64,000 bases of DNA, taken from contig JAFGAR010000151.1 of NCBI GenBank assembly GCA_016933575.1, forward strand, positions 124,001-188,000. Direction: 5' to 3'. This stretch comes from Candidatus Thorarchaeota archaeon. Lineage in GTDB: Archaea; Asgardarchaeota; Thorarchaeia; Thorarchaeales; Thorarchaeaceae. Under the pieces are notes generated by a model that did no database searches, was not told the DNA's origin, and saw only the letters and a list, made by a program, of their open reading frames with translations. Positions 50,892 to 60,344 of the stretch are shown here, piece by piece. Each line of letters starts with the position of its first letter. Position 1 is the stretch's first letter. The position numbers were made by a program, and so were the translations under genes.

Positions 50892-51941
50892 ATGATGAGA
50901 GAGGCTACATTATACTCAAACCTAAAGCAAGGGATTAGATGCGATCTTTGTGCTAGACGATGTGTACTCCATGATGGTGAGACAGGTTTCTGTCGCGTGA
51001 GGGTAGTAAAAGATGGTAAGCTCTACACAAAGGTCTATGGCTTAATTGATGGGATGGCTGCTGATCCTATTGAAAAGAAACCATTATTCCACTTTGCCCC
51101 TGGTAGTCATGCCTTTTCAATTAGTACATCTTCTTGCAATTTTCGCTGTCAGTTTTGTCTGAACTATCACTCTGCTCATAGAGAAGTTCCCGCAGGCGAG
51201 ATGATAATGCCTGAAGAGATTGTTCACCTTGCTGAACGACACAACTGCGCAGGGATCACATACACATACACAGAACCAACGGTCTTCATGGAATTAGCTC
51301 ATGATACAGCAGAAATTGCTCATAATAAGGGTATGTTCAATACTTTCGTTACAAATGGTTATCTCACAAAAGAAGCAATTGATTATATTGCACCCTATCT
51401 AGATGCAGCCTCTGTGAATTTCAAGGGCAGTGGGAATAAGAAATTCTACAACGACCTTATGTCAGTCCCAAAGGTGGAACCAATATTTACTGCGATGGAT
51501 TATATGAACAAGAAAGGCATATTGATCGAAATTACGAATCTTATTATTCCAGAGGTGGGGGATCATCCCGAAGATACCGAGTATTTAGCTAAATGGACCG
51601 TTGAACATCTTGGTCCCCGTACTGCTTTCCATGTCACTGCTTTCTCACCAACCTACAAACTTACTCATATACCTCGGACTTCTGCCAAAATGCTTGAGAA
51701 ACATATAGCCATCGCCAAAGAAGCTGGCTTAGAGTTCGTGTATTCAGGAAATATTCCCGGACATGATTATGAAAACACGTACTGTCCAGAGTGTGGCTAT
51801 AAGGTAATAGAACGTCACTCTGTCTACCTAAAGAGCAACAATCTTAATGAGCAAGGTCTCTGCCCCCAATGTAATGCGAACTTGAATATCTCTGGTATTC
51901 AATGGATGGTCCGTGGCAAAGGTCAATTAGGTCGTTTCTGA
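50892..51941 (+). CDS. amrS: AmmeMemoRadiSam system radical SAM protein AmrS
   Basis: 349 residues. N-terminal cysteines CDLCARRCVL, then the radical SAM motif C82-C86-C89 (SCNFRCQFC), YTYTEPTVF and NFKGSGNKKFY. A C-terminal zinc ribbon has CPEC and CPQC. These match the AmrS family, encoded with MEMO1 and AMMECR1 homologues in many archaea; those partners are not in the window. The reaction is unknown. A DUF2797 gene follows 10 bases downstream and is probably co-transcribed. Confidence 0.88.
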   Translation: MMREATLYSNLKQGIRCDLCARRCVLHDGETGFCRVRVVKDGKLYTKVYGLIDGMAADPIEKKPLFHFAPGSHAFSISTSSCNFRCQFCLNYHSAHREVPAGEMIMPEEIVHLAERHNCAGITYTYTEPTVFMELAHDTAEIAHNKGMFNTFVTNGYLTKEAIDYIAPYLDAASVNFKGSGNKKFYNDLMSVPKVEPIFTAMDYMNKKGILIEITNLIIPEVGDHPEDTEYLAKWTVEHLGPRTAFHVTAFSPTYKLTHIPRTSAKMLEKHIAIAKEAGLEFVYSGNIPGHDYENTYCPECGYKVIERHSVYLKSNNLNEQGLCPQCNANLNISGIQWMVRGKGQLGRF

Positions 51942-52881: not shown

Positions 52882-53757
52882 ATGACTAACAACGAAGAAA
52901 CAAAAGCACTGGTCAGATATCTCTCTCTTGTTAGAAAAGAAGGTGGCGAACCCGTAATTGGTATCCCCTATCGTGAGATGTCTGTTGATCCAGATCTTGT
53001 GGCAAGTTTCGTTTTGGCAGTCATAATCTTCGAGAATCGTCAATTGAAGACATTCACGAAGGAAGGTTATGTTGTGGTAATTGAAGAGGGAGAACATGTT
53101 GTAGGCCTATTAATTATTGATCGAGTCGCTGATGATACTCCATATCGAAATTCTTTGATATCAATAATTAAGAAATTCGAGGAAACTTATGAGAATCAAC
53201 TACTCAGCTGGAAAGGAGACATACGCCCTTTCCGTGAATATGCTTTAGACATCCTGCAAGTATTTCCTTATCGAACATTTAGCTTAGAGATGATTCCAAA
53301 AATTGTGTCAAAGTCCGATGCTACACCAGACCTTCAGGCAAATATCCCCTGGAGTGTCGGTGAAACTGATAGGAAGATTCAGAATATTGTTGGATATATC
53401 AATGGAAAACGAACTATTGAAGAGATCATGAACCAATCCGATCTTGAGGATTCTGAGATACTAGCTATATTATCAATGCTTGATAAATACAAATGGATTT
53501 CACTCACTAGGAAACTTGATGATAAATCAATATTGTTTAAATTGATGGAACCTCCAAGACTTCTTGTTGGAGCGTATGGGGAACAACTGACAAGTATAGT
53601 AGAACTGTGTGATGGGACAAAAAGTCTAGCAGAAATATGCGAATCTCTCCCCTATAATATGGAAGCTGTAAAGTTGGTGGCAAAGAATCTGATAGACGCA
53701 GGGGTTCTTGGTTATCGGGAAATAGATTCTGAATCTGATGAAGGCGAGGTGGGCTAG
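52882..53757 (+). CDS. longin-like N-domain protein with two PqqD/wHTH-like domains (copy 1)
   Basis: 291 residues. The first 130 (VRYLSLVRKEGGEPVIGIPY, DPDLVASFVLAVIIF, GYVVVIEEGEHVVGLLIIDR, then a long helix and WKGDIRPFREYAL) follow the strand-strand-helix order of the longin-like proteins common in Asgard archaea, which bind small GTPases. Two repeats follow: VGYINGKRTIEEIM and VELCDGTKSLAEIC, each resembling a PqqD/wHTH unit. A paralogue starts 2 bases beyond its stop. The longin call is from pattern and family memory. Confidence 0.65.
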   Translation: MTNNEETKALVRYLSLVRKEGGEPVIGIPYREMSVDPDLVASFVLAVIIFENRQLKTFTKEGYVVVIEEGEHVVGLLIIDRVADDTPYRNSLISIIKKFEETYENQLLSWKGDIRPFREYALDILQVFPYRTFSLEMIPKIVSKSDATPDLQANIPWSVGETDRKIQNIVGYINGKRTIEEIMNQSDLEDSEILAILSMLDKYKWISLTRKLDDKSILFKLMEPPRLLVGAYGEQLTSIVELCDGTKSLAEICESLPYNMEAVKLVAKNLIDAGVLGYREIDSESDEGEVG

Positions 53758-53759
53758 TA

Positions 53760-54587
53760 ATGACACTTGATTTCTCAAAGGTCCGTTACATCTCACTGAT
53801 TCGAATGGAAGGTGGTGAGTCTGTTCTCAATATACCCTATGCAGAACTCACTGTGGACCCAGATCTTATCGCAGGTTTCGTGACAGCTGTAATTATCTTT
53901 GCTAAAACACCGATACGGACCATTCGCAAGGCTGCTTATGATATTCTCATTGAGGTTGGTAGAAGTGTTCTGGTACTTCTCGTTGTTGACCCGGTTCCTG
54001 ATGAAACTCCCTATAGAGAGAAGCTACAGAGGATTTTAGATGAAGTCGAATCACAACATGGAGAGAAACTTAGGCATTTTGAGGGCGATGTGAGACGATT
54101 TCGAGAATTCGCACTTACAGTTGTACGAGAATTTCCGTTTCAATCTGCTGACCTTAATATGGTTCCCGTCAAAAGAATGGATGGTATTCGTATTCCATTT
54201 CGGGTCGGTGCAGTGGATCGTGAGTTAGAACAAGTTGAGTCCTTCATTAATGGAAAACGAACAATTGCTGAGATTATGGATTTAATGGGTCTTTCTGATG
54301 ATGATGTATTGGCACTTATTTCAATATTAGCAAGGTATCGTTGGATTGAATTCAAACGTCGTCTGACGGAGAATGACATTTTGCGACGTATTGGTTGCCA
54401 GAATATCATTCTTGATCGTCTCAGGTCACAATATGGCAAAGCCTTAGAAGACCTGATGGCCAAATTTGATGGAAATGCAAAAATCGTTGATGTAACACAC
54501 TCATTGCCTTATGATAAGGATGCACTATGGTTTCTAATCAACAAACTTGTTGAAGTAGGATGTCTCTCAGTTGTTCATCCGACTTAG
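53760..54587 (+). CDS. longin-like N-domain protein with PqqD/wHTH-like domains (copy 2)
   Basis: 275 residues, homologous throughout to the preceding gene: VRYISLIRMEGGESVLNIPY, DPDLIAGFVTAVIIFA, FEGDVRRFREFAL in the N-domain, then VESFINGKRTIAEIMDLMG and AKFDGNAKIVDVTHSLPY in the repeats. Two-base spacing to copy 1 means tight coupling, so the products may form a heterodimer, as longin and roadblock platforms often do. Its last 4 bases overlap the convergent NifB-like gene. Confidence 0.65.
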   Translation: MTLDFSKVRYISLIRMEGGESVLNIPYAELTVDPDLIAGFVTAVIIFAKTPIRTIRKAAYDILIEVGRSVLVLLVVDPVPDETPYREKLQRILDEVESQHGEKLRHFEGDVRRFREFALTVVREFPFQSADLNMVPVKRMDGIRIPFRVGAVDRELEQVESFINGKRTIAEIMDLMGLSDDDVLALISILARYRWIEFKRRLTENDILRRIGCQNIILDRLRSQYGKALEDLMAKFDGNAKIVDVTHSLPYDKDALWFLINKLVEVGCLSVVHPT

Positions 54588-55414
54588 AGAATCCGATCAT
54601 TTCCTGGAATACCAACGACATCACTCCTGCATTGTTTGCAATGTGTGAATTGTTGGACATATTTAGCGGCAGTCTGACGAGCCAGCATTATTTCTTCTGT
54701 AGAAGGTGGTTTCAGATGTTTTGCATTACTAAAGGGCACGAGGGGAACTATGTTTTGTAGTTGTACTCCCTCCCCAGCAATTCTTCTAGCAAGCAATATT
54801 ATATCCTGATTATTTATCTCTGGGATGAGGATGCTATTCACTTTCACTGTTATGGATGAATCAATTGCGGCCCGTATCCCTTGTAGCTGCCTCTCAACTA
54901 TCTCTCTACCCATGGATAGACCTTTTTGAATTACGTTATCGATTCTTGCCCATTCATATAATTTCATTGCTATATTGGGACTGATTGCACTCATAGTCAC
55001 AGAGATGGTTGAAATTCCAAGCTCCACAAGTGCTTCTATTGATTCACTCAACAACACGCCATTAGTACTTAGACAGAACCTGAAGTCATATCCAAGTTCA
55101 ACTATCCCTTGCAGAGTTTCAAAGGTTTCTCTATTAGCCAAGGGTTCTCCTGGTCCTGATATGGCAGCGATTTTCAAACAAGGATTTTTCTCCTTCTCTA
55201 AACGAATTCTTCTAATCGCTTGAGATGGTTCCATTACATACGAGGAATATCCTGGTTTTGATGTATGACATGACGAACCATGACGGTGATCACAGAAGAT
55301 GCACTTGACATTGCAATCCCTAGCGACTGGGAGGTGTATCCGAGACCATAGATTATCTCGTGTCATCGAAAAACAGGGATGATGTGTAAATGGATATTGC
55401 TCTTGCGCTGTCAT
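54584..55414 (-). CDS. NifB-family radical SAM protein
   Basis: 276 residues of the SAM-only NifB type, which fuses two [4Fe-4S] clusters and inserts carbide to build NifB-co. The radical SAM motif is C34-C38-C41. Other NifB hallmarks are THHPCFS (His11, Cys14), Cys49 in SCHTSKPG, ISGPGEPLANRETF, FCLSTNG (Cys114) and the C-terminal HCKQCRSDVVG (Cys259, Cys262). All positions expected to hold substrate clusters are filled. The spacing C41-C49 is two residues longer than I recall for NifB. No other nif gene is present. It follows the roadblock gene after 6 bases. Confidence 0.82.
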   Translation of the reverse strand: MTAQEQYPFTHHPCFSMTRDNLWSRIHLPVARDCNVKCIFCDHRHGSSCHTSKPGYSSYVMEPSQAIRRIRLEKEKNPCLKIAAISGPGEPLANRETFETLQGIVELGYDFRFCLSTNGVLLSESIEALVELGISTISVTMSAISPNIAMKLYEWARIDNVIQKGLSMGREIVERQLQGIRAAIDSSITVKVNSILIPEINNQDIILLARRIAGEGVQLQNIVPLVPFSNAKHLKPPSTEEIMLARQTAAKYVQQFTHCKQCRSDVVGIPGNDRIL

Positions 55415-55420
55415 CGTAGA

Positions 55421-55813
55421 TCAAACATTCTGATGCAGTATCTTCCTGGCATCTCTTGCTGTACGTTTTGCGTCTGAGAAAATCAGTCCCAATGCAGCGT
55501 TTTCAGGAGCGGTTACTGTCAATATGTAATCTGGTGATATTGAAATAACAAGGGTTGTTCCAAAATCCCCCTGAATTATGATTGATTTCAGATCTCCCTG
55601 TCTTAGCTCCTTTACAGTTTGTTCTCCTGCTGCATGTATTCCTGCCACCATAGCAGCAACTGTGACCTCCTCAGTCCCTGCATGGAAGTGACTGACAAGA
55701 GGAAGTCCTTCTACTGAGAAGATGGCGGCGCCTAAGATTGGCGATTTATTTGATAGCTCTTTGAGCACTGCTCCCAGACTATCTCGAATTTTCATTGCAT
55801 TTGGATCTGCCAA
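55421..55813 (-). CDS. roadblock/LC7 domain protein
   Basis: 130 residues, one roadblock/LC7 (MglB-like) domain: long helix DSLGAVLKELS, strand LGAAIFSVEGLPLVSHF, helix VAAMVAGIHAAGEQTVKEL, strands SIIIQGDFGTTLVISISPDY and LTVTAPENAALGLIF, final helix. These proteins regulate small Ras-like GTPases; Asgard archaea have many. No GTPase gene is in the window. TTG start with GAGG 8 bases upstream. Coupled to the NifB-like gene, which is unexpected for this family. Confidence 0.82.
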   Translation of the reverse strand: MADPNAMKIRDSLGAVLKELSNKSPILGAAIFSVEGLPLVSHFHAGTEEVTVAAMVAGIHAAGEQTVKELRQGDLKSIIIQGDFGTTLVISISPDYILTVTAPENAALGLIFSDAKRTARDARKILHQNV

Positions 55814-55911: not shown

Positions 55912-56946
55912 TTAACCAATCAAACGGACTGAAGTCACAGTATCACTGTGTAGGGTCGAGGTTGGCAGTTTCATTACCTTGAGAACATTCTCTGCTTTGT
56001 CACCCAAATCAGCTTCTTTCAACATGTCGACAAACTCAAAACCTGTCGTTATAATCAGTCCTTTTACAGGTCGCCCATTTCTCATTGATTCAAGCAATTC
56101 ATCAACTGTGTATAACCTGCATTTGAGGTCAAGGTCTTTCTGTTTTTCCAAATGGCTGATTCCTTTCTTAGCAATCCCTCTATTCTCGCGTTGTTCACTA
56201 GTATACGCTCTTCTTCTATACATTGACTTTAGTCTTGTGAGTCCCCTCTCAATAAGCTCTTGTGCATTAAGATTCCTTCCATATATTGATTCAACGCTTT
56301 TCATAGTGGTAGTCACTAGCCAAGCTGTTCCATATGCAGATTGATAACGCATTGCTTTGAGAAGTTCTGATTCACTTAATAGAGTGAGTGACCGATATCC
56401 TTTGTACTCTATTGAAATTGTCCAATCCGGAGATTCATGATGGACCATGAGATCTGGAGTGAGTCCTTCTCCAGTCGAAGGGACAGACGTTGTCACATCT
56501 GGGAAGAGATGCATAATCAGTGCAAGGAATGCTTCGTGAAACATATTATGTCTGAGATTTCTTGCTTCCTGAGGATGCCTCATTCCAGCATCTCTGTAGA
56601 GCACAGGCATCTCGACTTTTTGTCCTGTTTTGCTTCTAACATCTGATTTGGTTGTAAGGCGGCCTCTGGAATGATTCAGCTTGACTAATCTTATTGCTGC
56701 TTCATAACCCATGAGATCGAACGCAACAGCTCCGATGTTCGTTTTCTTTGTACCTGAATCCTCGGAGGCTCTGCGTTTTGCTTCGTCTTGAGCCCAATCC
56801 GCAACATCTTGAGCATCATCGCCAAGAAGATTAAAGATTGATCGAAGTTTTTCGTTCAGGTTGTATCTCTTCACATGATTCCTTATTTCAATATTTAATT
56901 TCACTTGCTTTGCCAATACTTCTCTCTCACGTATTATTGTGGACAA
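55912..56946 (-). CDS. PD-(D/E)XK-like nuclease of the topoisomerase VI operon
   Basis: 344 residues from TTG, directly after the TAA of the coiled-coil gene, with AGAGGG as ribosome site. The core TPDLMVHHESPDWTISIEYKGYRSL (about residues 165-190) fits PD-x(n)-E-x-K, the metal site of restriction-enzyme-like nucleases. Flanking helices and a basic stretch (MYRRRAYTSEQRENRGIAKKG) suit DNA binding. It is the last gene of the topoisomerase VI B-A-coiled-coil-nuclease operon, so a role in break processing or recombination is plausible. Activity is inferred. Confidence 0.68.
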   Translation of the reverse strand: MSTIIREREVLAKQVKLNIEIRNHVKRYNLNEKLRSIFNLLGDDAQDVADWAQDEAKRRASEDSGTKKTNIGAVAFDLMGYEAAIRLVKLNHSRGRLTTKSDVRSKTGQKVEMPVLYRDAGMRHPQEARNLRHNMFHEAFLALIMHLFPDVTTSVPSTGEGLTPDLMVHHESPDWTISIEYKGYRSLTLLSESELLKAMRYQSAYGTAWLVTTTMKSVESIYGRNLNAQELIERGLTRLKSMYRRRAYTSEQRENRGIAKKGISHLEKQKDLDLKCRLYTVDELLESMRNGRPVKGLIITTGFEFVDMLKEADLGDKAENVLKVMKLPTSTLHSDTVTSVRLIG

Positions 56947-57624
56947 TTACCCTCTTCTAAGTATGTCCTTTGTAAGTGTTACTTCATCACTATCCTCGTC
57001 CACTTTTACGAGTTCTGCATTTGCAAGGTCGTATACTGCCTTCCTTACAACTGCTGGCATGATTCCACTACCTGAAGCAATATTCTTACGAGTTATGGCT
57101 GTCTTGACATCGTGCAGAGTATAGAGGATTCTTGCATGAGGTTTGCCGTAGAAGACTGTTTCAATCAAAGTAATATAGATTGCAAGCAAATCGCTTAGGT
57201 CTACCTTCTCCTGCAATGCTTCTTTTTCAGCGGATGCTTCTCTATAGAGTTCAGATACTCTCTGTAGCTGTTCATTAATCTCATCTAGCTCTCGTTTGAA
57301 ATCATCACGTTCCTTTCGAATAGCATCAATCTCTTCACTCTTTGAAGCACTAGCATCTTCGAGTTGCTTCTTTAGGGTCTTATTCTCATTAGATAATGTA
57401 TCTAACTTACTCTCTGCTTTTTCCTTGTCACTTGCTACCTTCTCAAGTTCGCTTTCAAGTCTCTTTAGTTTCTCTTCAGCGGCCCATGCCTTTTCTTCAG
57501 ATTCTCGTTTTCCTGCTCTGAGTTCCTCACCTTCACTCTGGAATTTATCACTTTCATCAAGTAGAGTTACAATGGTGCTCTTGAACTCGTCAAGTAATTC
57601 TAACAGTTTCTCCCTATCGGTCAT
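56947..57624 (-). CDS. coiled-coil protein with C-terminal winged helix in the topoisomerase VI operon
   Basis: 225 residues from ATG 57624 with GAGGAG 10 bases upstream. Residues 1-135 are a long charged coiled coil (EEKLKRLESELEKVASDKEK, KKQLEDASASKSEEIDAI). The last 80 residues form a wHTH (ITLIETVFYGKPHARILYTL, ITRKNIASGSGIMPAVVRKA, DLANAELVKV). It could dimerise and bind DNA, linking topoisomerase VI to the nuclease that follows with no intergenic base. Confidence 0.75.
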   Translation of the reverse strand: MTDREKLLELLDEFKSTIVTLLDESDKFQSEGEELRAGKRESEEKAWAAEEKLKRLESELEKVASDKEKAESKLDTLSNENKTLKKQLEDASASKSEEIDAIRKERDDFKRELDEINEQLQRVSELYREASAEKEALQEKVDLSDLLAIYITLIETVFYGKPHARILYTLHDVKTAITRKNIASGSGIMPAVVRKAVYDLANAELVKVDEDSDEVTLTKDILRRG

Positions 57625-57663
57625 GATAGTGACACTCCTCACTTTTTGTCAGCACTCCGAGCT

Positions 57664-58809
57664 TTATATCAGTTTCACATCGAAGGACGAAGTCTTCTCT
57701 TTGAGGTATTTGATGTAGAGTTCCTTCAGATCTGCCAGTGGGAATCCAAAAGCTTTGAATGCTTCAAGCTCTCCCTTTCGTTTTTTCTTGAGCATGATAT
57801 CATTCTCTCTATTGAGCACTGAATCTTGGCTGATTGCAGGTATGTTCTTGTTTTGCTGGGCACATTTCAAATCAGCTTTTGTCATAGATTCTAAGGAGTG
57901 CTCGATATCTCTTAACATTCCTTTTCTACCCCAGAAATCATCTGTGGTCAATCCAAGAAGTTGAGCCTCTGGGGTTGCTAGTCCTTGGATGTTGGCTAAT
58001 TCAATTGAATTGCTCTTTATTGTTGAGAAGATACGGAGCGACCATGGTGACATGTCAACTAACACGAATATTGGCACTTCTCGATCTGCCAGACGCCTAA
58101 TCCATGCTCTCATGTTTCTACCTGGTTGGCCAAATAATGAACCAACTCCTATCTTGAGACCCTCTGCAAGTCCCAATTCGATGAGATTCCTTGACATTGC
58201 TTCTTTTTCAACAAAAACAGCAGCATCAATATTGATGTCATGAATCTTCACATCAAATGGTCTGCTTGAGATAAACCAGCCATATTCACCTGCTGATGCA
58301 CAATTGAGTCTTTTTCCAGACATGTCTGAGAGTGTCACATCACCATAGAAGGTGCCTTTTGGAGAACTCACGACACCAAATTCCTCACGTGGTACAGATG
58401 ACCCACCTAGTCGGATGATCCGTTCACATAAGTTGATGAGGCGATTGGTTTCTGTCTGGTCTGTTATCTTCAAGACATCCTGCACATGTTTTACTTTGTG
58501 CATGTAATAGAAGTCTCTCAGGCTCATTGACATATTTTGTTCGAGATGTTCCTTGAATCTGGAGAGTCCATAGATAAGGCCTGCAATCGTCTTTGCACTC
58601 TCGACTTTTCTTCCATCAATGAATGATGGCGATTCATCGATGTGCACGTATCCCTTCTCCTCCAAAAAATCCACATTCTTCTTTGACGATCCGTAATAAC
58701 CAATCTCTGGAAATACTCCATCATTGATAGTGTCTACTAGAGTTACGAGGACTCCATCAATAAATTCCAAGACATCAGCAGTTGACATCTCTGATATCGA
58801 CCGATTCAT
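57664..58809 (-). CDS. top6A: DNA topoisomerase VI subunit A (Spo11-like)
   Basis: 381 residues, the DNA-cleaving subunit. The winged-helix catalytic site is SLRDFYYMHK with the DNA-linking Tyr102. The Toprim domain has the metal Glu201 (VFVEKEAM) and then VDMSPWSLRIFS, where the usual DxD is D252-M253-S254: the second Asp is a Ser. The end SIELANIQGLATPEAQLLGLT is family-typical. Overlaps the B gene as ATGA, so A and B are co-translated. Two genes follow in the operon. Confidence 0.9.
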   Translation of the reverse strand: MNRSISEMSTADVLEFIDGVLVTLVDTINDGVFPEIGYYGSSKKNVDFLEEKGYVHIDESPSFIDGRKVESAKTIAGLIYGLSRFKEHLEQNMSMSLRDFYYMHKVKHVQDVLKITDQTETNRLINLCERIIRLGGSSVPREEFGVVSSPKGTFYGDVTLSDMSGKRLNCASAGEYGWFISSRPFDVKIHDINIDAAVFVEKEAMSRNLIELGLAEGLKIGVGSLFGQPGRNMRAWIRRLADREVPIFVLVDMSPWSLRIFSTIKSNSIELANIQGLATPEAQLLGLTTDDFWGRKGMLRDIEHSLESMTKADLKCAQQNKNIPAISQDSVLNRENDIMLKKKRKGELEAFKAFGFPLADLKELYIKYLKEKTSSFDVKLI

Positions 58810-60344
58810 TCCTCATTCCCTCCTTCTATTCCAAGAAGTCTATTCAGAGATACTTCTTTCCCTGTTGCATTACTGAGTGTATGTGTCATGAATTGGTAGT
58901 AAGTAACCAGTTTGGACTCACGTCGATGTTCTCTCTGAACTCTGTTACGTTTTCGAAGTTTATCATTGAGTTCTCTCAGACAATCCTTGAATCCAAGATC
59001 TATCTCTCTCCGTACGACATCAACATCAGCAATGTACTCTTTTCCTATTGTTTTGTAAGGAATTTTCGTCGAGCAGATATGGATTGTAAATGTCAATGGA
59101 TCCTCCAACCTAAGTCCATAATTCTTTAGATTGAGGTCTCTCACCACTCTATATGCTACATCAGATCTTTCATCATATAAGAGTGGAATCCGGTTTGCAA
59201 ATCGAATGATATTCATGCCAGGGCTTAGTTGACCCCCGTAAGCCACACCAGTCTCAATGATAAATGGATGTCCTTCATAGACGTTTGCTTGTCTCTGTCT
59301 AAATACAACGAACTCTGGTGCTAGTCTCTCAATCCCTGCCATAAGCACATCAGTTCCTACTGGTGAGAGTGATTTTGATGATGGCGGGAGAAATCGGTCA
59401 AAACTCTCCATGCAATTCATCATTCGTACTAATTCCTCTTGTGTCAGAGTTCTTGGATTGATATCTTGATCTAGTTGTGCATATTCCAGGAACTCATTAG
59501 CTTTCATCTCACCAACCCGTTGAAATGAACTCATGAGAAATGTTTTCAGAGTCTTCTTCTTTGTAACCGCAATCATTCGTTTAAGCATCTCAACATCAAT
59601 ACCACGAGGATGTGGCTTTGTCTTAGCGGGAGGTCTTGGTATCTTCTCAATCACTCGTTTGAATTTGAGTAATTCACCATCAGGAGTTTCAAAGAGTATT
59701 GAGGCATAGGGAACAATAATTGCAGTTTGCGTGAAATAATCAATGATTCTTCGCTTACTTCTAAGCCAGTCTCCTTGAAGCCAAAAAGAGACCATGGTTC
59801 CACTCTCATCTCTTGCCTTGAGTACTTTCTCTTCTTCGATAATGATTGGTTGATTCTTCTCAATGTCAAGCTGCATTTCCAATCGATAACCAAACTCACT
59901 ACCTTTCTGTCCCGTGACAATCTCGATTGGTCTCTGTGTAGTGACTTGTCCGTAGAGAAGCGCTAGACTTCCGCCAAGACCAAATGTACCTCTGCTCTGC
60001 CGATGCATGAATTTGGTACCAGTCAGCATTTTACCTAATAATCGTGGGATTGCCTCTCGCTTCATTCCAGTTCCATTATCTTTTACTATCAACTCGAAAA
60101 TCTCAGGTCCTTGACCTATGAGATCTATCACCGAGCTATCTTCTTCTCGTCTAAGAAGGGCCGTAATTTCAGGTAGGACTCTTGCATCTTCACAAGCATC
60201 AAGGCTATTCTCAACAATCTCTCTCACTGCAACATAGAGTGATCTTGCTGGATTGTCAAAACCCGCAATGGCCCGGTTCCGGTAGAACCAAGCTGATACA
60301 GAGAGTTCAACGATATCTTGACTGGTACTTTTCGGTGTAAGCAA
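58806..60344 (-). CDS. top6B: DNA topoisomerase VI subunit B
   Basis: 512-residue ATPase subunit of the A2B2 type IIB topoisomerase. GHKL motifs: VREIVENSLDACEDA (N-box, near residue 39), KDNGTGMKREAI (G1, near 91) and RGTFGLGGSLALLYG (G2, near 118). Then an H2TH-like region (ERVGEMKANEFLEYAQLDQD) and the transducer with PFIIETGVAYGG and FANRIPLLYDE. Length is about right for archaeal Top6B. First gene of the operon; its stop overlaps the A start by 4 bases. Confidence 0.93.
   Translation of the reverse strand: MLTPKSTSQDIVELSVSAWFYRNRAIAGFDNPARSLYVAVREIVENSLDACEDARVLPEITALLRREEDSSVIDLIGQGPEIFELIVKDNGTGMKREAIPRLLGKMLTGTKFMHRQSRGTFGLGGSLALLYGQVTTQRPIEIVTGQKGSEFGYRLEMQLDIEKNQPIIIEEEKVLKARDESGTMVSFWLQGDWLRSKRRIIDYFTQTAIIVPYASILFETPDGELLKFKRVIEKIPRPPAKTKPHPRGIDVEMLKRMIAVTKKKTLKTFLMSSFQRVGEMKANEFLEYAQLDQDINPRTLTQEELVRMMNCMESFDRFLPPSSKSLSPVGTDVLMAGIERLAPEFVVFRQRQANVYEGHPFIIETGVAYGGQLSPGMNIIRFANRIPLLYDERSDVAYRVVRDLNLKNYGLRLEDPLTFTIHICSTKIPYKTIGKEYIADVDVVRREIDLGFKDCLRELNDKLRKRNRVQREHRRESKLVTYYQFMTHTLSNATGKEVSLNRLLGIEGGNEE

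Follow-up and report, generated by a model that had tools for sequence, protein, structure and literature searches.

A divergent NifB-type radical SAM protein widespread in Thorarchaeota, in genomes that lack the known NifB clients

Described NifB systems and the identity of the window protein

NifB builds the iron-sulfur-carbon core of nitrogenase, and few biological metal clusters are as elaborate. To our knowledge, the NifB cluster has established users only in the nitrogenase family and in the MCR activation complex. The experimentally proven NifB proteins have six motifs in common, namely HPC, Cx3Cx2C, ExRP, AGPG, TxTxN and Cx2CRxDAxG (Arragain 2017; PMC5715403). The K-cluster ligands of MthNifB are C18, H31, C115, C260 and C263, and the loop residue E53 binds K1 prior to fusion; the plug loop is flexible in known NifB proteins (PMC9692996). 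The K1 histidine has been established experimentally as His43 in MaNifB, and is required for L-cluster formation (PMC7145814). Methanogens without nitrogenase also carry NifB, and three L-type [8Fe-9S-C] clusters are housed in the McrC and Mmp7 proteins of the MCR activation complex (PMC12176620). The nitrogenase-like methylthio-alkane reductase is reported to be another non-nitrogenase user of the NifB product (PMC12552129). The presence of NifB in Asgard archaea in general was noted in a Nature paper of 2025 (PMC12176620), and a full-text search of one literature library for NifB together with Thorarchaeota found no paper.

The sequence analysed here (the window) is a stretch of 64,000 nucleotides from a Thorarchaeota assembly of 3.47 Mb in 215 contigs. 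A gene with an ATG start on its minus strand (54584–55414) encodes a protein of 276 aa that consists of a radical SAM domain only, without a NifX domain. The preliminary description called this a NifB-type radical SAM protein, and both sequence and fold bear the call out. TIGR01290 (nifB) is the only close NCBIfam model, at 221 bits as compared with 63 bits for the MoaA model. The score falls short of the curated cut-off of 343.65; this model describes a two-domain NifB over 441 positions, and the crystallised single-domain NifB of Methanothermobacter, at 303 bits, is also below the cut-off, while that of Methanothrix scores 363 bits. Among solved structures, the NifB entries 6y1x and 7bi7 are the best sequence matches. 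An AlphaFold2 model built from 34 aligned homologues has a pLDDT of 89.7 and a pTM of 0.88, and its sole poorly modelled internal stretch is the plug loop (residues 45–52). Searched with Foldseek, this model finds 7bi7 as the nearest fold (TM 0.88–0.89); the top five matches are all NifB, with E values of 5.2e-23 or better, and the next family follows at 2.8e-10, so that radical SAM families other than NifB are weaker by more than 10 orders of magnitude.

The closest described relatives are the archaeal single-domain NifB proteins of Methanothrix (6Y1X) and Methanothermobacter (7BI7/7JMA), which have the same fold (TM 0.88) and length as the window protein at 36–38% identity. They share with it the HPC and Cx3Cx2C motifs and the K1 histidine, and their K-cluster cysteines C115, C260 and C263 have equivalents in it. 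Unlike these proteins, the window protein has altered versions of ExRP, AGPG, TxTxN and Cx2CRxDAxG, and the Thorarchaeota protein is not met alongside nitrogenase or MCR. Because these four motifs fail, we use the terms NifB-type or divergent NifB, and do not mean NifB sensu stricto where the short name appears. A second radical SAM enzyme a few genes off (50892–51941) belongs to a different family, AmmeMemoRadiSam (TIGR04337, above cut-off).

Cluster ligands and altered fingerprint motifs

The ligands of the K cluster and of the SAM cluster are invariant in the family wherever the aligned sequences cover them, with a mean column identity of 57%. All lie on the minus strand. Cys14 of the HPC motif (55373–55375) corresponds to the K-cluster ligand C18 of MthNifB and is invariant in 36 sequences. 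His27 (55334–55336), also invariant, corresponds to the K1 histidine, H31 in MthNifB and H43 in MaNifB. The radical SAM cluster motif Cys34-x3-Cys38-x2-Cys41 (55292–55315) and the K-cluster ligand Cys114 (55073–55075; C115 in MthNifB) are likewise invariant, and Cys259-x2-Cys262 (54629–54640; C260/C263 in MthNifB) occurs in all sequences that cover it. The chance of finding the six N-terminal ligands all within the 32 invariant columns of 276 is about 1.6e-6. Most of the ligand set proposed in the preliminary description (Cys14, Cys114, Cys259, Cys262 and CxxxCxxC) therefore stands, and the loss of ligands in relatives that it had allowed for is not seen. Two of its assignments change. His11 is variable (H in only 21 of 36 sequences) and is rejected as the K1 ligand in favour of the invariant His27, and Cys49, although it does sit in the flexible plug loop, is not strictly conserved; a Cys is contained in 35 of 39 Thorarchaeota loops. 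As read from the alignment, the window protein has the iron ligands for the SAM cluster and for both substrate clusters, and given these ligands it likely works like NifB.

The remaining fingerprint motifs are different. We compared 39 Thorarchaeota sequences with 60 other NifB sequences from a database scan, 52 of which have all six motifs together. HPC and the AdoMet motif Cx3Cx2C are found in 39/39 Thorarchaeota. ExRP, in contrast, is kept in 3/39 (59/60 in the other NifB sequences) and is missing from the window protein, while AGPG is also kept in 3/39 (55/60) and reads SGPG in the window. TxTxN and Cx2CRxDAxG are found in 0/39 Thorarchaeota sequences, as against 59/60 others for each, and the window protein has SVTMS and CKQCRSDVVG in their places; the change of DA to DV within the latter motif is common to 39/39. 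Among the altered positions are a residue next to the glycine-rich GPGEP motif and the strand with TxTxN. The plug loop itself (DHRHGSSCHTSKPG, residues 42–55; 55250–55291, minus strand) is remodelled, with the ExRP glutamate replaced and a Cys-His pair in place, as in the typical Thorarchaeota loop SCHTSKPG. Since the loop histidine also occurs in an McrC-bearing Asgard genome (G129), and the NifB of the Baldr family, which lies beside nitrogenase-like genes, is also without ExRP, the loop change alone is no marker of the orphan type. Of the Asgard sequences compared, only those of Thorarchaeota show the changes in AGPG and TxTxN. By comparison of sequences, the failure of four of the six published NifB motifs with the core cluster ligands kept is new here.

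It had been suggested earlier that carbide-type cluster synthesis could be intact. The iron ligands agree with this, but with four of six fingerprint motifs changed in essentially all Thorarchaeota, NifB chemistry is not to be assumed for this protein. The main rival to a retained NifB function is a NifB-derived enzyme with changed chemistry, which would hold all three clusters and make another product, such as a carbide-free 8Fe cluster or a methylated one, or act on another substrate. The motif counts above point this way, as do the long stem branch of the Thorarchaeota proteins and the loss of the plug-loop glutamate, which is a K1 ligand in the resting enzyme (PMC9692996). The core K-cluster ligands are nevertheless invariant, including the histidine needed for L-cluster formation (PMC7145814), and the Baldr example makes the ExRP motif indecisive by itself. 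We hold changed chemistry to be possible, if doubtful.

Distribution, selection and the search for a client

A family-profile search of 47 Thorarchaeota and 181 other Asgard genomes finds NifB in 39/47 of the former and in 7/181 of the latter. The eight Thorarchaeota in which this search found no NifB are G035, G017, G020, G036, G218, G220, G224 and G225. In G035, the contig ends within the nifB locus, and in G017 and G020 the neighbouring c3 gene is missing too. The single-contig assembly G036 has lost nifB alone, with c1–c3–roadblock kept. In the NifB tree, which is unrooted (without an outgroup, other radical SAM families aligning poorly over the informative regions) and has some long branches, the Thorarchaeota proteins form a single clade with support of 100/100 and a long stem. 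Together with the NifB of Asgard family f13 (G057 and G217), they make up one side of a 98/91 branch, and the proteins of Baldr, G129 and G131 are placed among methanogen-type NifB.

The nifB gene is under purifying selection, with a weaker constraint than the neighbouring genes; its dN/dS in close pairs (0.18–0.26) is roughly three times that of its neighbours (about 0.03–0.10 for the roadblock gene and 0.03–0.09 for top6A). Such faster evolution, along with the one clear loss in G036 and the view that MCR activation is ancestral in Asgard/TACK/Euryarchaeota (PMC12176620), is consistent with a relic, inherited from an ancestor among the Asgards that had MCR or nitrogenase, and now decaying or kept for a minor role. 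We regard a relic as unlikely, because NifB is kept in 39 of the 47 genomes with invariant ligands and a purifying dN/dS, and a functionless gene is not expected to keep eight ligands at an overall identity of 45–60%.

The seven other Asgard carriers are G049, G056, G059, G129, G131, G057 and G217, and most of them have a known client as well. PF00148, which we take to comprise the NifD/K/E/N-type proteins, accompanies NifB in the three Baldr-family genomes (G049, G056, G059), and in G049 and G056 the genes for PF00148, NifH and NifB lie side by side. The NifB of Baldrarchaeota resembles that of Thorarchaeota in being an Asgard protein without ExRP, but differs in having an adjacent nitrogenase-like client and in nesting among methanogen-type NifB. 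Two further carriers, G129 and G131, have McrC. Outside Thorarchaeota, the f13 genomes are the sole case of NifB without PF00148 and without McrC. Their protein adjoins that of Thorarchaeota in the unrooted tree (98/91) and is also without ExRP and the DA of Cx2CRxDAxG, but it keeps AGPG and TxTxN and has other gene neighbours. Asgard NifB thus usually accompanies a known client, with Thorarchaeota and f13 as exceptions, a pattern that speaks for NifB being retained, as a rule, because of its product.

Several features of these carriers can be noted in passing. In G056 (Candidatus Baldrarchaeota; L062:4140–7063), a single PF00148 protein of 417 aa is encoded with NifH and a single-domain NifB in a compact cluster of three genes, and the same order is found in G049; if these genes do encode a nitrogenase-like enzyme of one subunit together with its own NifB, they would be a minimal system deserving study. 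G129 has two NifB genes (L204:5375–6181 and L205:7610–8407), with His for the ExRP Glu in the plug loops, and one of them is two genes from a NifU_N protein. The f13 NifB genes (L061, L203) are near hydrogenase/Hdr-type genes. Another Asgard contig (G041:C57:8267–11623; L068) has NifH (323 bits) adjacent to two PF00148 genes, in a genome with no NifB detected.

Known clients were searched for in the Thorarchaeota genomes, and control genomes behaved as expected. PF00148 proteins and McrC are each found in 0/47 genomes, and the searches for NifH and Mmp7, which covered 37 genomes, found neither a true NifH nor an Mmp7 (0/37 each); the PF00142 matches are at MinD/ParA level, with about 30 bits at most as compared with over 320 for real NifH. 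The genomes are assemblies of 52–100% completeness, and as the absences rest on 47 separate assemblies, a systematic miss is unlikely. The earlier remark that nothing else nif-like is seen consequently holds for the window and the genome and, as regards PF00148, for all 47 genomes of the family. Nitrogenase has been reported in Thorarchaeota according to a 2019 review that cites Liu 2018 and Wong 2018 (PMC6646929), and this is what one would cite for an ordinary explanation in which NifB is accounted for by nif or mcr genes in another part of the Thorarchaeota genomes. The PF00148, McrC and PF00142 results already refute this for the sampled genomes, and we give it next to no credence; NifB or MinD-like ATPases may lie behind the reported nitrogenase. 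Claims of nitrogen fixation by Thorarchaeota find no support in these genomes.

The preliminary description also treated NifB without nitrogenase as an oddity. In itself this is not new, as it is known from methanogens (PMC12176620), but the absence of McrC and Mmp7 as well is unusual. The NifB of nitrogenase-less methanogens (M. jannaschii type), which the L-clusters of McrC/Mmp7 link to MCR activation, is likewise found without nif structural genes; Thorarchaeota differ in being without McrC (47 genomes) and without Mmp7 (37). On the present evidence, the MCR-activation and methylthio-alkane reductase routes are both closed to Thorarchaeota.

Two other protein families were tested as clients by co-occurrence, and neither finds support. 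NifX-like carriers (PF02579) are missing in six NifB-positive Thorarchaeota and present in many NifB-less Asgards. Double-cubane/HGD-D-type proteins (PF06050) occur in 34/37 Thorarchaeota searched, but are missing in the NifB-positive G019 and G030 and kept in the NifB-negative G036. In the source genome (G000, contig C57; L209:6445–9673), two adjacent proteins of the latter type are encoded with a BadF-like activator ATPase, and adjoin hydrogenase/Nuo-like genes.

With no client gene found, NifB might itself act as a terminal reductase, in which a bound L-cluster fed by ferredoxin would reduce N2, C2H2 or some other small molecule. L-cluster-bound NifB, when isolated, does reduce N2 without ATP, both in vitro and in E. 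coli (PMC13245594). The activity is known from canonical NifB only, however, and with the motifs of the window protein altered, we think it very unlikely that this is its role. Both this possibility and the relic are less likely than either a retained NifB or changed chemistry.

The occurrence of NifB in 39 of 47 genomes without a known cluster user means either that the cluster has a further user or that the enzyme now does something else. We give about even chances to the former in the following form: a vertically inherited, Thorarchaeota-specific, divergent NifB that makes an 8Fe cluster for a client outside both the nitrogenase family and MCR activation. What we infer here is that a cluster is made, of what kind it is, and that it has a client. 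The protein would bind its SAM [4Fe-4S] cluster and two substrate [4Fe-4S] clusters; the two substrate clusters would be fused by NifB-type radical SAM chemistry to an 8Fe cluster of the L-cluster kind; and this product would be passed to a putative client protein that is neither of the nitrogenase family nor of the MCR activation complex. Three observations speak against a retained NifB, namely the four of six fingerprint motifs broken in nearly all Thorarchaeota, the failure of the PF02579 and PF06050 candidates to follow NifB, and the faster dN/dS of nifB. Somewhat short of an even chance, in our estimate, is the more specific proposal that Thorarchaeota, and possibly f13, have a metalloenzyme that needs an L-type or modified 8Fe carbide/sulfide cluster from the remodelled NifB; if true, this would add a third use of NifB chemistry to those in the nitrogenase family and in MCR activation. 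A lineage-wide NifB with its ligands kept and its second-shell motifs altered points to a further cluster-dependent enzyme in Asgard archaea or to drifted chemistry, and bears on whether NifB chemistry served nitrogenase first or something else.

The roadblock gene and the syntenic neighbourhood

Immediately upstream of nifB is a gene with a TTG start (55421–55813, minus strand) for a Roadblock/LC7 protein of 130 aa (PF03259, Robl_LC7 domain; 54.5 bits, gathering score 23), which is also matched by the roadblock structures 7f8m and 9jue. The 6-base spacing given in the preliminary description is exact, and both reading frames are on the minus strand. The order roadblock–nifB is constant in 39/39 Thorarchaeota loci, always on the same strand and with a gap of −10 to 49 bases, and the two genes are probably co-transcribed. 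This constancy could reflect a dedicated module in which the roadblock protein regulates or scaffolds NifB, as the coupling proposed earlier would imply. The adjacency is borne out, but the functional tie is weak, because the surrounding tens of kilobases are generally syntenic across genera and G036 has lost nifB and kept the roadblock gene. In addition, the nifB genes of G057, G217 and G129 have other neighbours, and the roadblock gene is under much stronger constraint than nifB. A dedicated module is thus highly improbable, and beyond adjacency the roadblock protein finds no support as a functional partner. At the site of the natural loss in G036 (L063:7974–9009), the space beside the intact roadblock gene is filled by remnants of a repeat-type surface protein.

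Much of the 64 kb window is colinear with the matching regions of two other Thorarchaeota genomes (G022 and G030), and top6B–top6A–coiled coil–c3–roadblock–nifB form one long conserved run. The same neighbourhood in family-mates indicates that the window locus is no binning artefact. The c3 gene (55912–56946, minus strand), which is given here as context and is not claimed as part of a NifB system, lies between the roadblock gene and the gene for a coiled-coil protein downstream of topoisomerase VI. It encodes a Thorarchaeota-wide protein of 344 aa that has no Pfam match and a P-D...E-Y-K motif, weakly resembles Hjc/PD-(D/E)XK nucleases in structure, and was not found in the other Asgards searched. 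The coiled-coil protein and the topoisomerase VI A and B subunits (56947–60344, minus strand) are syntenic context only.

Other parts of the window and genome show some further features. Convergent to nifB in nearly all Thorarchaeota is a tandem pair of paralogous genes (52882–54587 in the window), which encode proteins of 291 and 275 aa with a winged-helix-like C-terminal part. A second, divergent topoisomerase VI B–A pair, 35% and 28% identical to the window family, is found on contig C7 of the source genome (L066:8943–11001), and a PF02579 gene lies in the same region. Finally, a polysaccharide/glycan biosynthesis island (20957–41600) breaks the otherwise good synteny of the window with other Thorarchaeota genera.
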